Notes under the pieces: model-generated
The model's input: the letters and a program-made list of their open reading frames with translations, nothing else
What the model was told of the DNA's origin: nothing
Database searches by the model: none
Shown here: piece by piece, positions 6,079-31,934 of the stretch
How the letters are laid out: every line of letters begins with the position of its first letter
How positions within the stretch are numbered: position 1 is the stretch's first letter
Position numbers and translations under genes: made by a program
Origin: Myxococcota bacterium
GTDB lineage: Bacteria; Myxococcota_C; UBA6777
DNA length: 31,934 nt
Direction of reading: 5' to 3'
Assembly (NCBI GenBank): GCA_023150835.1
Contig: JAKLKB010000070.1
Span: 1-31,934, forward strand

Positions 6079-7755
6079 TCACTTTCCGATACAAAAGCGT
6101 GAGAAGATCGCATCCAAGATCGCTTCGGAGGAAAGCTCTCCCGTGATCTCGACAAGGGCTTTTCGTGCGGTGCGAAGGTCTTCTGCGAGAAATTCGGGTC
6201 CGAGTGAAGCGCCTTTTTCGCGGGCTTGGAGGAGCGCGTGAAGGGCCGTTTGTAAGGCGCGGTGTTGGCGTTCGTTGGTGATGATCAGTTCGTGCGCGGG
6301 TGCGGTCTCTTCCATGTGGTGGTGTAACCATTGACGCAACGAATCCAGTCCCTCCCCGTTTTGGCAACTTACGGAAAAACGCGCAAGGGGCGAAAACAGG
6401 GCCATGTCTTGTTCAGAGATCGCGGGAGGGAGATCGCACTTGTTGAGCAAAAGGACGGTAGGACGGCCAGAACAGGCTTGCGCGACTTGGCGATCTTCTT
6501 CTCCAAAAGGCCGAGAGCGATCGAGGACAGCCAAGATCAATTGGGCTTGTTGTGCAGCGCGCAGGGCACGCTCTACTCCGATCTGTTCGATATCTTCGTG
6601 GGTACAAGTGCCTTCTTCGGAGTGTGCGATCGGGGGGGCGGTATCGCGCAGAGCGGATGGGGTATGTGAGGAGGCGTTGTGTGCGGAGGCTGTAGGTTGT
6701 AGAGAAGGGGTGTGTGAGGAGGCGTTGTGTGCGGAGGCTGTAGGTTGTAGAGAAGGGTTGTGGGGGGAGGCGTTGTGTGCGGAGGCTGTAGGTTGTAGAG
6801 AAGGGTTGTGGGGGGAGGCGTCGTGTGCGGAGGCTGTAGGTTGTAGAGAAGGGGTGTGTGGGGAGGGGAGAGCGTGGTTTGGTGTGTAGCGTTGGCGCAA
6901 GCCGGCGGAGTCGATTAGGCGGATCTGTAGGCCACCCAAGGCGATTTGAGCTTCAAGCAGATCGCGTGTTGTGCCGGGGAGGGGTGTGACGATGGCGCGA
7001 TCATCACCATGAAGGCGATTGAAGAGGCTGGATTTTCCGGCATTGGGGCGTCCAAGGAGCAGGAGGGACCAGCCTTGTTGAAGCTGTTTGCCTTGGGCGT
7101 AGGAGTCGGCGAGTTTTCGGACGTCTTGGGTGAAAGCGTCCATCTCGTCAAAGATCAAGCGGACGGAAGCATCGAGGGAAGGATCGAATTCTTCGGGGAA
7201 GTCGATCCAGCTTTCGACGCGGACAGCGAGAGTGAGGGAGCGTTCGGCAAGTTGATCGAGGTGTTGTTTGAGGTCGCCTTGGAGGTGGCGTCGTGCGACG
7301 TGCAGGGCTTGTTCATTTTTGGCGGCGATCAGATCGATAATGGCCTCTGCACGGGTGAGATCGAGGCGACCGTTGAGAAAAGCGCGTCGAGTGAATTCGC
7401 CCGGTTGTGCGGGACGTGCGCCAAGATCGAGGATGACGCGCAAGATCTGCAAGAGGTTGAGTCGCCCACCGTGCATCTGAAACTCGATCACGTCGTCGCC
7501 CGTATAAGAGCGTCCTTTCGGCATCCACACGCCCAAGCCTTCGTCCAAGATCGCGCCCGAAGTGTCGCGGCATTGGCCGAGATACATACGATGAGGCTCC
7601 CATGTTGCGGGGGGGATTGTGCATTGAAAGACGATTTGGGCGATGTCACGGGCTTTTGGGCCGCTGATGCGCAAGATGCCGATGCCACCTTCTCCGATGG
7701 CGGTGGCGATGGCGGCGATGGTGTCGTGGGGTGAGGTCTGTTGTTCTAGATACAA
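6079..7755 (-). CDS. mnmE: tRNA modification GTPase MnmE with a repeat insertion in switch II
   Basis: With MnmG, MnmE installs the cmnm5 group on wobble uridine of certain tRNAs. Motifs numbered from the TTG start: DTIAAIATAIGEGGIGILRI (11-30), GRPNAGKS P-loop (235-242), PGTTRD (260-265), DSAG G3 (282-285), NKCD G4 (438-441), and the C-terminal CIGK that carries the catalytic Cys. The protein is 558 aa against about 450 usually. The excess is one insertion, residues about 288-389, between G3 and the IEQIGVERA segment; it contains four 16-residue repeats (HTPSLQPTASAHNASS type). The N- and C-terminal domains appear intact. The TTG start (7753-7755) overlaps the stop of the SDR gene by 10 nt, and the first residues match the usual MnmE N-terminus. 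No strong RBS is visible, so coupling is likely. Confidence 0.95.
   Translation of the reverse strand: MYLEQQTSPHDTIAAIATAIGEGGIGILRISGPKARDIAQIVFQCTIPPATWEPHRMYLGQCRDTSGAILDEGLGVWMPKGRSYTGDDVIEFQMHGGRLNLLQILRVILDLGARPAQPGEFTRRAFLNGRLDLTRAEAIIDLIAAKNEQALHVARRHLQGDLKQHLDQLAERSLTLAVRVESWIDFPEEFDPSLDASVRLIFDEMDAFTQDVRKLADSYAQGKQLQQGWSLLLLGRPNAGKSSLFNRLHGDDRAIVTPLPGTTRDLLEAQIALGGLQIRLIDSAGLRQRYTPNHALPSPHTPSLQPTASAHDASPHNPSLQPTASAHNASPHNPSLQPTASAHNASSHTPSLQPTASAHNASSHTPSALRDTAPPIAHSEEGTCTHEDIEQIGVERALRAAQQAQLILAVLDRSRPFGEEDRQVAQACSGRPTVLLLNKCDLPPAISEQDMALFSPLARFSVSCQNGEGLDSLRQWLHHHMEETAPAHELIITNERQHRALQTALHALLQAREKGASLGPEFLAEDLRTARKALVEITGELSSEAILDAIFSRFCIGK
6665..6868. repeat. 48-bp in-frame tandem repeat within mnmE
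   Basis: Four copies of a 48-bp unit (6665-6712, 6713-6760, 6761-6808, 6809-6856) and a 12-bp partial copy. The unit begins TGTGAGGAGGCG on the plus strand. Copies are nearly identical, differing mainly in the first dozen bases. Because 48 is divisible by three, the mnmE frame is kept; each unit encodes 16 residues rich in Ser, Ala, Pro, His and Thr. Confidence 0.95.
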
Positions 7756-8540
7756 GAGGTTCGGCCCCCATCGACGGGCAAACAGACGCCACGTATATAA
7801 GAAGCAGCAGGGGACGCAAGAAAGGCGATGGCAGCGCCGAGTTCTTCGGCATGACCGAGGCGGCCTTCGGGGATGCTTTTGATCCATTCGTCTTCGATGG
7901 TGGCGATGTCGACCCCTGCGGCAGCGGCGCGTGATTGGGCGAGAGAGACAAGGCGCTCGGTCATCGTAAAGCCGGGAAGGAGGCTGTTGATGGTGATCTG
8001 GGGGGGAAGTTCAAGGGAGAGGGTTTTGGCCCAAGAGGCCATCGCCCCGCGTATGGTGTTGCTGACGCCGAGGTTGGGGATGGGCTGGCGAACGGAAGTG
8101 GAGAGGATGTTGATGATCCGCCCGTATTGTTCGGCCTGCATCCCGGGCAACAACAAGCCGAGGATGCGTTGGGAGGCGAGCAAGTGGCGACCGATGGCCT
8201 TGAGGAAATCTTCTTCGGTGGCGTCGACAAGTCGGCCGGGTGCGGGGCCGCCCGTGTTGTTGATCCAGATGTGGATCGGGCCGTATTGTTCGAGGTGTTC
8301 GGAGAGGGTACGGGCCAAGGTCTCGCGATCATCGAGGTCGGCAACAAGGGCGAGTGCGCGTGCGGAACCTTGCTGTTCTAAGATCGGCAAGAGGTCGGTG
8401 AGACGGTCTTTTCGGCGTGCGAGGACAGTGATCTTTGCGCCCATCGAAGCCATGACACGGGCAGAGGCTTCACCGATCCCTGCACTCCCACCGCAAACAA
8501 GGGCATGTTTTCCCTCAAGTGTAAATCCGTATTGTTTCAT
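7746..8540 (-). CDS. Atypical short-chain dehydrogenase/reductase (FabG-like, catalytic Tyr-Lys not found)
   Basis: 264-aa Rossmann-fold protein. The cofactor motif GGSAGIG follows the first strand (18-24; classical TGxxxGIG), NNTGG stands for NNAG, and ILSTS holds the catalytic-type Ser. Where a classical SDR has YxxxK, this protein reads VSNTIRGAMASWAKTL, so Tyr and Lys are missing. The same deviation is known in a subgroup of 3-oxoacyl-ACP-reductase-like SDRs whose activity is unclear. The C-terminus GVCLPVDGGRTSCI is typical of the FabG superfamily. The ATG overlaps the bcp stop as ATGA, and its own stop overlaps the mnmE start, so it is the middle gene of a coupled trio. The substrate cannot be told from the sequence. 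Confidence 0.88.
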   Translation of the reverse strand: MKQYGFTLEGKHALVCGGSAGIGEASARVMASMGAKITVLARRKDRLTDLLPILEQQGSARALALVADLDDRETLARTLSEHLEQYGPIHIWINNTGGPAPGRLVDATEEDFLKAIGRHLLASQRILGLLLPGMQAEQYGRIINILSTSVRQPIPNLGVSNTIRGAMASWAKTLSLELPPQITINSLLPGFTMTERLVSLAQSRAAAAGVDIATIEDEWIKSIPEGRLGHAEELGAAIAFLASPAASYIRGVCLPVDGGRTSCI

Positions 8541-13790: not shown

Positions 13791-15380
13791 CTATGGCCGC
13801 CATACCGCAGGACGAGAGGCTGGTGGGAAAGCCTTGTTTGTGGGCTGCGCGGCTGCTGGTTTGTGGGGCTGCGTGGATGGGCGGAGGTCGGGCTGCGTGG
13901 CTGCTGGTTTGTGGGGCAGTGCGGATGGGCGGATGTCGGGCTGTGTGAGGGAGCGGACGGGAGGTTGTGTGGATGGGTGTGTTGTTTTTGCCCGCATATC
14001 GGGGATTTTTGATGCTGCGGGATGTTGGGGGGCGATTCGACGGGTAGATGAGTTCGTGTGTACGGAAGTTGCGGGAAGTTGTGGGGCTGTTTTGGAGGCA
14101 GGTTTGCCGATGAGGAGGGTGTCTTGGCCGTGATAGAAGACGCCAGCGAGAGCGCCTGTCATCATGCAGGCGAGCGTTGCGGCAAACAAGGCACGAAAGG
14201 CGACAGCACTCAGATCGCGGGCGCGTTCGGGGGCGATGGCGGCCATGCCGCCCACAAAGATGCCAAGGGACGGGATATGGGCGAAGCCGCAAAGTGCGTA
14301 TACCGCGATGACTGCGGAGCGTGGATCGTGGAGAGTGCCTTGTTGGAGCATCTTGGAGAGTTCGAGATAGCAGGGAAATTCTGTGAGAAAAGTGCGCGTG
14401 GCGAGCAGATGCGCCACAGACCAAGCATCTTGGGTGGGTACACCCATCAGAAGCACCAAGGGATAAAAGGCGTAACTTGCGAGACTTTGGAGGCTTTGGT
14501 GGGGCGCACCAAGGCTTTGACCCGTCCATCCGACGAAGCTGTTGGCGAGTGCAACAAGGCTCACAAACGTGATCAAGGTTGCACCAATACCCACCGCGAG
14601 TTTCGCCCCTTCCATCGAGCCTTTGATCAAAGATTCGATGCTGTTTTCGTAATGAGAGCCTTCGCTTTTGACTTCTTGGCCGAGGGTTTGGGGTGTTTCC
14701 GTTTCCGGCAAGAGCAGCTTGGAGATCAACAACGCCGCAGGGGCCGAGACGATCGAAGCGGAGATCAGATGCCCTGCGATCTGTGGAAAGCTTTGTTGAA
14801 GAAACGAAGCATACAGCGCAAGCACCGTCGAGGCGATGGTGGCCATCCCTGCGGTCAAGATGGTGCAAAGCTCCGAACGTGTCATGGTCGAGAGATAGGG
14901 ACGGATCGTCAGAGAAGATTCGACGCCAACAAAGATATTACTCGATACACACAATGATTCAGCCCCGCTGACACGCATCAAACCTGTAAACAGCCTCGAA
15001 AAGAAGCGGATCAACATCGGCATGAACCCGATGTGGTAAAGGAACGCCACGATCGCTGCGAAAAACACCGCAGCAGGAAGCACTTGGAAGGCCAGAAAAA
15101 CGCCCAACGAGTCTTTTTGCCCCGGGGGTAGGGCCAATCGGCCAAAGACGAACGAGATGCCTTCGTTTGCGTGTGAAAGCAACGAAAACACCCCATCGTT
15201 GAGAAATGAAAAAAAGCGCCGACCCGCCGGCAACAAAAACACCACCGCACCAAAGACAAATTGCAGCAAAACCCCCCACAAAAGCAACGAAAGATTGATC
15301 ACCCGACGATGACTCGAAAATAACCATGCCACCAAGAGAAAGCCGAAGAATCCGAAGAATGAGACGATGTTAAAGTACAT
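13791..15380 (-). CDS. Concentrative nucleoside transporter (CNT/NupC family) with a repeat-rich C-terminal tail
   Basis: Inner-membrane ion-coupled nucleoside importer. Family segments are seen in order: LLWGVLLQFVFGAVVFLLP, the re-entrant/core FLAFQVLPAAVFFAAIVAFLYHIGFM, SGAESLCVSSNIFVGVESSL, TRSELCTILTAGMATIASTVLALYASF, ISASIVSAPAALLISKLLLPE, and the final GFAHIPSLGIFVGGMAAIAPERARDLS with its helix. The core ends near residue 415. The remaining about 110 residues are a Pro/Ala/Ser/Thr/His-rich tail with at least two copies of a 16-residue unit (QPDIRPSALPHKPAAT type) encoded by 48-bp repeats near 13855-13955. Ordinary family members lack such a tail. The ATG is at 15378-15380; a candidate promoter lies at 15443-15471. 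Confidence 0.9.
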   Translation of the reverse strand: MYFNIVSFFGFFGFLLVAWLFSSHRRVINLSLLLWGVLLQFVFGAVVFLLPAGRRFFSFLNDGVFSLLSHANEGISFVFGRLALPPGQKDSLGVFLAFQVLPAAVFFAAIVAFLYHIGFMPMLIRFFSRLFTGLMRVSGAESLCVSSNIFVGVESSLTIRPYLSTMTRSELCTILTAGMATIASTVLALYASFLQQSFPQIAGHLISASIVSAPAALLISKLLLPETETPQTLGQEVKSEGSHYENSIESLIKGSMEGAKLAVGIGATLITFVSLVALANSFVGWTGQSLGAPHQSLQSLASYAFYPLVLLMGVPTQDAWSVAHLLATRTFLTEFPCYLELSKMLQQGTLHDPRSAVIAVYALCGFAHIPSLGIFVGGMAAIAPERARDLSAVAFRALFAATLACMMTGALAGVFYHGQDTLLIGKPASKTAPQLPATSVHTNSSTRRIAPQHPAASKIPDMRAKTTHPSTQPPVRSLTQPDIRPSALPHKPAATQPDLRPSTQPHKPAAAQPTNKAFPPASRPAVWRP

Positions 15381-15471: not shown

Positions 15472-15499
15472 GAGAGCTTGTTGGGTGACAAAGCAAAGA

Positions 15500-15647
15500 A
15501 GAGTCCACGGAAAACACGGAAAGAAGGCAGAAAAAGAAGGGGGGCATGGAAAGTATGCAGAAAAAGAAGGGGGCATGGAAAGTACGGAAAGAAGGCAGAA
15601 AAAGAAGGGGGCATGGAAAGTATGGAAAGAAGGCAGAAAAAGAAGGA
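15500..15647. repeat. Degenerate tandem repeat with GTCCACGGAAA seed
   Basis: Starts at AAGAAGAGTCCACGGAAA and continues as about four imperfect copies of a purine-rich unit (GGCAGAAAAAGAAGGGGG then CATGGAAAGTA) up to the stop of the next lipoprotein gene. The seed recurs at about 23833 and 31697. Open frames through it are low-complexity and not considered genes. Confidence 0.8.
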
Positions 15648-16915: not shown

Positions 16916-16917
16916 TT

Positions 16918-17220
16918 GAATCGAAAACGATAGCTTTGGGGATGAGAAGCAGCGTAATGGAATCGAAAACGATAGATTTTGCGATGGCGGGAGGGTTTTT
17001 TGAATCGAAAACGATAGATTTTGCGATGGCGGGAGGGTTTTTTGAATCGAAAACGATAGATTTTGCGATGGCGGGAGGGTTTTTGGGATCGAAAACGATA
17101 GATTTTGCGATGGCGGGAGGGTTTTTTGAATCGAAAACGGTAGATTTCGCGGTGGCGGGAGGGTTTTTGGGATCGAAAACAGTAGCTTTTGCGATGATGG
17201 GACGATGTTTAGAACCGAAG
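16918..17220. repeat. 42-bp tandem repeat array (about 7 copies)
   Basis: Units start at 16918, 16960, 17002, 17044, 17086, 17128 and 17170, with a short partial to 17220. Each begins GAATCGAAAACGATAG or GGATCGAAAACGATAG and ends with GGCGGGAGGGTTTTT. The middle four are nearly identical and the outer ones diverged. It fills the gap between the 66-aa lipoprotein and the stop of the next minus-strand gene. It can be read through in several frames because 42 is divisible by three, but no start, RBS or family supports a gene. Confidence 0.95.
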
Positions 17221-18241: not shown

Positions 18242-18507
18242 TACGAAATCCGCCCGTTGTGTGAGCGTAAAAATGTAGGGGCAGCCCCCTGTGGCTGCCT
18301 GAGCATAGGGCGTCGAACACGAGATCCGCCCGTTGTGTGAGCGTAAGGACGTAGGGGCAGACCCCTGTGTCTGCCCGATCATAGGGCATCGAATACGAGA
18401 TCCGCCCCTTGTGTGAGCGTAAAAATGTAGGGGCAGACAGGTGTGGCTGCCCAAGAATCGGGCGTCTAGGCACTCTCCTTCGTTGTGTACATCACTCGGA
18501 TTTCGTA
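18242..18507. repeat. Interspersed palindromic element, family 1, copy D (triplicated core)
   Basis: 266 bp between TACGAAATCCG (18242-18252) and the exact inverse CGGATTTCGTA (18497-18507). The core is present three times with a 76-bp period (CGARATCCGC at 18244, 18320, 18396). Each core has GTTGTGTGAGCGTAA, GTAGGGGCAG and a hairpin: arms GGCAGCC/GGCTGCC in unit 1, GGCAGAC/GTCTGCC in unit 2, GGCAGAC/GGCTGCC in unit 3. It fills most of the 452-bp gap 18121-18572; nothing else is visible there. Confidence 0.9.
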
Positions 18508-23832: not shown

Positions 23833-24126
23833 AAATCAAGAGGGGTCCACGGAAAGCACGGAAAGCACGGAAAGGAGGCAAGAAGAGTTCAGAGATGGGG
23901 CGTTGGGCTTGGGTCGCGGCTTCGGCTTGAAAGCACGGAAAGCACGGAAAGGAGGCAAGAAGAGTTCAGAGACGGGGCGTTGGGCTTGGGTCGCGGCTTC
24001 GGCTTGAAAGCACGGAAAGCACGGAAAGGAGGCAAGAAGAGTTCAGAGATGGCGCGTTGGGCTTGGGTCGCGGCTTCGGCTTCGGCTTGAAAGCACGGAA
24101 AACACGGAAAGCAGGCAAGAAGAGGG
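23833..24126. repeat. GTCCACGGAAA-seeded array with 77-bp higher-order repeats
   Basis: Begins AAGAGGGGTCCACGGAAA, with ACGGAAAGC steps. Long units then start at 23855, 23932 and 24009 (77-bp period), and a further copy starts at 24092 because the third unit is 83 bp, lengthened by GGCTTC. Each unit has AGCACGGAAAGCACGGAAAG, GGAGGCAAGAAGAGTTCAGA and GGGCTTGGGTCGCGGCTTCG. No coding signal. Confidence 0.92.
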
Positions 24127-31699: not shown

Positions 31700-31934
31700 A
31701 GAAGAGTCCACGGAAAGCACGGAAAACACGGAAAATACGGAAAGTACCGAAAGTACGGAAAGTACGGAAAGTACGGAAAGTACGGAAAGTACGAAAAGTA
31801 CGGAAAGTACGGAAAGTACGGAAAGCACGGAAAGTACGGAAAGTACGGAAAGTACGGAAAGTACGGAAAGTACGGAAAGTACGGAAAGTACGGAAAGTAC
31901 GGAAAGTACGGAAAGTACGGAAAGTACGGAAAGT
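31700..31934. repeat. 9-bp satellite (GTACGGAAA)n with GTCCACGGAAA seed, continuing beyond the window
   Basis: After AAGAAGAGTCCACGGAAA the unit GCACGGAAA or GTACGGAAA repeats about 25 times to the window end with few changes (ACACGGAAA, ATACGGAAA, ACCGAAA, ACGAAAA early on). On the minus strand it reads as endless Leu-Ser-Val, which is not a gene. Confidence 0.97.

Follow-up and report, generated by a model that had tools for sequence, protein, structure and literature searches.

MnmE (TrmE/ThdF) is a K+-activated tRNA-modification GTPase represented by the structures 1XZP, 2GJ8, 3GEE, 3GEH, and 9HIP. In Escherichia coli MnmE, E282 is the catalytic glutamate. Switch II is disordered in open states of MnmE, and dimerization in the presence of K+ and GTP orders switch II and positions E282, with helix alpha-2 lengthening by two turns and R275 steadying E282 (PMC2749940; PMC3695501). 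Ser278, inside the linker between R275 and E282, was picked as a surface-exposed position and could be spin labeled without loss of K+-stimulated GTPase activity, and in the AlFx dimer the C-beta atoms of the Ser278 pair stand 18 Å apart (PMC2749940). Contacts between R252 and D279 also pass through this linker (PMC3695501), so that a loop placed here may affect the coupling of switches I and II. In known MnmE proteins the G3 Arg and the catalytic Glu are typically six residues apart, whereas the MnmE described here has a 102-residue, predicted-disordered repeat loop at this point; all domains, the G motifs, the K-loop, the catalytic Glu and the C-terminal CIGK are common to both, and the full fold is predicted.

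Intragenic tandem repeats are known from other bacteria, e.g., Legionella pneumophila, where, as here, the units are in frame, array length turns over between close relatives and the arrays form a genome-wide set (PMC2639597). Rickettsia palindromic elements likewise place an extra in-frame peptide inside conserved enzymes (PMC10969869), but these elements are dispersed, whereas the MnmE array is tandem and occurs at one place in the genome. No report of switch-II insertions in MnmE was found in the open-access literature.

The mnmE gene and its switch-II insertion

The window, i.e., the whole stretch of 31,934 nucleotides that we analyzed, carries an open reading frame on the minus strand (6079-7887) that reaches upstream as far as an ATG at 7887. 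The start codon is likely the TTG at 7755, because the upstream SDR gene (7746-8540) ends at 7746, overlapping the part of the frame beyond 7755, and the PF10396 match begins at residue 56 of the translated product P0001. In profile searches, P0001 matched TIGR00450 (345.7 bits, cut-off 252.6), PF12631 (164.5, cut-off 40.1) and PF10396 (129, cut-off 29.8), while NF003661 scored 372.4, slightly below its cut-off of 380, with the match split at the insertion. The features, of which the motifs were placed by alignment, are as follows.

6079..7755, minus strand: mnmE coding sequence, 558 codons plus stop, with a putative TTG start
7027..7053, minus strand: P-loop GRPNAGKSS
6961..6978, minus strand: switch I/K-loop motif PGTTRD, invariant in all aligned rows
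6895..6912, minus strand: G3 motif DSAGLR, residues 326-331 of P0001, its final Arg equivalent to E. coli R275
6589..6894, minus strand: switch-II insertion, 102 residues from DSAGLR to the catalytic Glu (usually 6)
6659..6866, minus strand: tandem array HTPSLQPTASAHNASS, 48-bp (16-aa) unit, 4.3 copies (TRF)
6586..6588, minus strand: codon of the catalytic Glu (E434 of P0001, E. coli E282), the Glu of IEQIGVER
6433..6444, minus strand: G4 motif NKCD
6082..6093, minus strand: C-terminal CIGK

The first-pass annotation, made from the sequence of the window alone, had located an insertion between G3 and the catalytic Glu at 6598-6900, and the alignment bore this out with exactly 102 residues and boundaries only a few bases away. 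Its claim that 16-aa repeats fill the approximately 96 extra residues holds in part: the linker is 96 residues above the usual six, but the array accounts for no more than about 69 of these 102 positions, with about 12 residues of non-repeated low-complexity sequence before it and about 26 after it. The alignment agrees with the annotation that the remaining motifs (P-loop, K-loop PGTTRD, DxAG, NKxD and C-terminal C[IL]GK, together with the catalytic Glu) are intact, and it further shows an acidic residue at the position of E. coli D279 (E431) in the MnmE of the genus. A second, repeat-free mnmE had been named as an observation that would overturn the reading; a search of the genome (7.56 Mb, draft, 239 contigs) found a single mnmE, along with one full-length, strong GIDA match for the partner MnmG (E 2.5e-160).

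The array makes up about two thirds of the insertion and consists of four complete units and partial ones, a copy number that rests on a draft assembly. TRF reported 95% matches, no indels and a score of 360. The 48-bp unit keeps the frame, as had been claimed, and the four full units read H[TN]PSLQPTASAH[DN]AS[PS], with HTPS and HNAS standing 33 bp apart inside the unit. A chance repeat was ruled out, since first-order Markov resampling of the window (50 resamples) gave a TRF score of 64 at best. The array has the features of a coding minisatellite, i.e., head-to-tail units with a period that is a multiple of three inside an open reading frame, and a length that varies between the two species of the genus (102 and 76 aa for the whole insertion). 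The repeat in the switch II of MnmE is thus real and not due to chance, and its position is surprising.

Linker length in the MnmE family and in relatives

Among 115 aligned MnmE rows, which include a few duplicate fetches of the same gene, the switch-II linker has six residues in 98 and seven or nine in a few, and linkers of 16, 22, 76, and 102 residues are confined to the phylum of this genome. In 16 additional MnmE regions drawn from 386 genomes, mostly picked for long PF12631 spans, the linker has 5-12 residues and the extra length is placed elsewhere, mostly after G4. The MnmE studied here thus falls outside the 5-12 residue spacing from G3 Arg to Glu seen in the family, this spacing being an observed regularity that curated models do not impose. 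Two further outliers lie outside the phylum, with linkers of 38 (L019) and 46 (L040) residues. Judging by these alignments, the switch-II stretch is length-constrained, yet the rule is broken in at least three lineages. When the other GTPases of the genome with a readable G3 region were inspected (Era, Der, Obg-like, EngB-like, IF-2-like, and others), no switch-II insertion of the same kind was found; in Era (L183, G000), a non-repeated extension of about 26 residues is located past this site, between G3 and G4.

The outlier L019 is the MnmE of an unrelated lineage (G027) with a non-repetitive insert at the same site. L040 (3767-3904) is the MnmE of a MAG labeled Nitrospira sp., where the insert (...GPELVEGVPVLSSE...) occupies the same switch-II site and has a strong RNA fold (-51.9 kcal/mol), and could therefore represent the in-frame insertion of a palindromic mobile repeat.

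A mobile in-frame element resembling the Rickettsia palindromic elements could also be proposed for the MnmE insertion itself, since in-frame entry into genes is documented for these elements (PMC10969869) and the Nitrospira MAG shows a strongly folding segment at the same site. We consider this origin extremely unlikely, as the 208-bp array has no match elsewhere in the genome and the lengthening within the phylum is graded (16, 22, 76, and 102), with the same core present in the sister species. A dispersed element of the Rickettsia type was consequently rejected, the array being present at one place in the genome and without dispersed copies.

The alignment with close relatives that the first-pass annotation had proposed was carried out on a phylum sample of five genomes from one family, and all five, this one included, show lengthening of the linker at one shared position: 102 residues here, 76 in the sister species, 22 and 16 in two other MAGs, and one linker interrupted by a run of N, the assembly gap in this relative (G002) falling exactly in the linker. 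The sister species belongs to the same genus and is collinear across the contig, with approximately 92-95% nucleotide identity in most blocks. Its array has a 33-bp (11-aa) unit in 3.2 copies, as compared to 48 bp and 4.3 copies here, and both are built on the core HTPSxQPTxSA. The 33-bp spacing of HTPS and HNAS within the 48-bp unit would be a plausible seed for the 33-bp period of the sister. A further difference between the two species was observed near the C-terminus of a nucleoside transporter (window 13842-13947), where a 48-bp array is found here and a 36-bp array in the sister.

The break in the assembly of G002 raises the question of whether misassembly has produced the array or at least set its length, and the presence of 208 bp of near-identical repeats in a draft of 239 contigs points in the same direction. 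On the other hand, the frame is kept and the copies differ by substitutions, the separately deposited sister genome also has a long in-frame insert, and two more MAGs have longer linkers, which makes an artefact a highly doubtful explanation.

Selection and predicted structure

Comparison of this genome with the sister species by the Nei-Gojobori method gave dN/dS of 0.035/0.249 before the insert (omega 0.14) and 0.033/0.263 after it (omega 0.13), as compared to 0.205/0.553 in the unique flanks of the insert (omega 0.37), so that dN of the insert is approximately six times that of the core (approximately 0.034). According to these estimates, the MnmE core is under ordinary purifying selection and the insert changes faster, though not freely, as omega of its flanks is below 1. 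Since the core is under purifying selection and MnmG is present, it is likely that MnmE is a working enzyme, which would hydrolyze GTP with the loop in place. The opposite reading, that the catalytic role of MnmE has been lost and that the gene is decaying or otherwise used, could be suggested by the insertion parting catalytic elements that are six residues apart in nearly all other MnmEs. It is very improbable considering that all motifs are intact, including the catalytic Glu and CIGK, that omega of the core is 0.13-0.14, that the gene is without stops in either species of the genus, and that MnmG is retained at full length in a genome with no second mnmE.

In an AlphaFold model based on 36 sequences the MnmE fold is kept, with a mean pLDDT of 81 and core blocks mostly over 85, and the nearest solved folds to the model are MnmE structures. 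The insert was modeled with a pLDDT of about 30 and no secondary structure, a prediction in line with the disordered loop that the first-pass annotation had anticipated, and helix alpha-2 (386-403) begins just before the catalytic Glu (E390 in model numbering). Since Ser278 of E. coli is surface-exposed and tolerates a label, the linker plausibly loops out to the solvent while both of its ends meet.

The position of the loop could be taken to indicate a functional, tunable regulatory element, in which length, a bound partner or modification of the Ser/Thr/Pro-rich sequence sets the GTPase cycle and repeat number tunes tRNA modification. The longer linker that all five phylum genomes retain at this site and the flank omega below 1 are consistent with such a role; moreover, the site touches residues that control when GTP is hydrolyzed and the G domains come apart (PMC3695501), and two disordered loops of about 100 residues would plausibly leave the closed dimer close together, only about 18 Å apart (PMC2749940). 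However, sequence, unit (48 and 33 bp) and total length (102 and 76 residues) vary widely within the genus, dN is about six times that of the core, and similar arrays are found in many unrelated genes. We therefore regard a regulatory loop as unlikely. A slippage-driven tuning knob, by which changes in repeat number would alter the GTPase cycle and so make cells of the same population differ in U34 modification and decoding, seems quite improbable.

Tandem arrays across the genome and the origin of the loop

In the 398 kb sampled from this genome, tandem arrays with a TRF score of at least 80 have a density of 22 per 100 kb, and in the sister species one of 32 per 100 kb, compared to 10.5 and 3.7 in two other sampled relatives and 0-3 in four controls; arrays are thus about ten times denser in the genus than in control genomes. 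The period is a multiple of three in 50 of 52 arrays in predicted genes and in 17 of 32 intergenic arrays (Fisher p = 3e-6), a comparison that is partly circular, as arrays with other periods break reading frames and drop from the coding class, and that relies on a home-made gene caller. Arrays were found, for example, in the tail of RNase E/G, ahead of the domain in GrpE and in linkers of Ser/Thr kinases. Most position-checked arrays of the genome lie in linkers or tails, whereas in MnmE, a conserved GTPase, the array is placed within the catalytic switch.

Several other arrays were recorded. Within the window, arrays of a GAAAGCACG/ACGGAAAGT-like 9-mer are present at 15495-15646, 23848-24124, and 31710-31934, and two others at 16916-17196 (42 bp, 6.7 copies) and 18243-18466 (76 bp, 2.9 copies). 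We counted 38 occurrences of CACGGAAAG in 398 kb of this genome, as compared to none in the sister (71 kb), the other relatives (251 kb) and the controls (400 kb). An RqcH/NFACT homolog of this genome (L129 864-2888, G000 contig C15, minus strand) carries a PPQNTAASQNTE-type in-frame tandem repeat within its NFACT-N match.

Because the longer linker is phylum-wide, the sister has a different unit and in-frame minisatellites are numerous, the MnmE array belongs to a class found throughout the genome and sits in a loop that had been lengthened before, in an unusually sensitive place. The anatomy given by the first-pass annotation thus stands, but its treatment of the insertion as a singular oddity of MnmE does not.

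Most probably, an in-frame minisatellite, neutral or nearly so, has grown within the switch-II linker of a working MnmE, at a solvent-exposed site where the linker was already longer in the ancestor. At that ancestral stage of the phylum, the linker from G3 (R275) to Glu (E282) would have grown from six to about 16-22 or more polar residues, and in one genus the linker segment HTPSxQPTxSAxNxxx would then have been tandemly duplicated by slippage or unequal recombination, giving the 48-bp unit here and the 33-bp unit in the sister, with only frame-keeping steps surviving. The disordered loop would exit the G domain at a solvent-exposed point, such that G3, the following Arg, the Glu and helix alpha-2 could still assemble upon G-domain dimerization, and it would be tolerated rather than selected for. 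The slippage mechanism, inferred from two genomes, is presumptive, as are the near-neutrality of the loop and the catalytic competence of the enzyme.

Should this MnmE prove functional, a spacing of six residues would be no mechanical necessity, and what counts would be the ends of the linker alone, the Arg on one side and the Glu with helix alpha-2 on the other, providing a natural experiment on how K+-activated GTPases place their catalytic residue. The stretch of switch II from G3 to the catalytic Glu is among the most length-constrained parts of MnmE surveyed, yet the loop differs between sister species. A minisatellite-rich genome can push conserved enzymes far, the RqcH/NFACT homolog having a similar insertion within NFACT-N, and where minisatellites abound throughout a genome, one can be accommodated even in a highly constrained region of a conserved enzyme.
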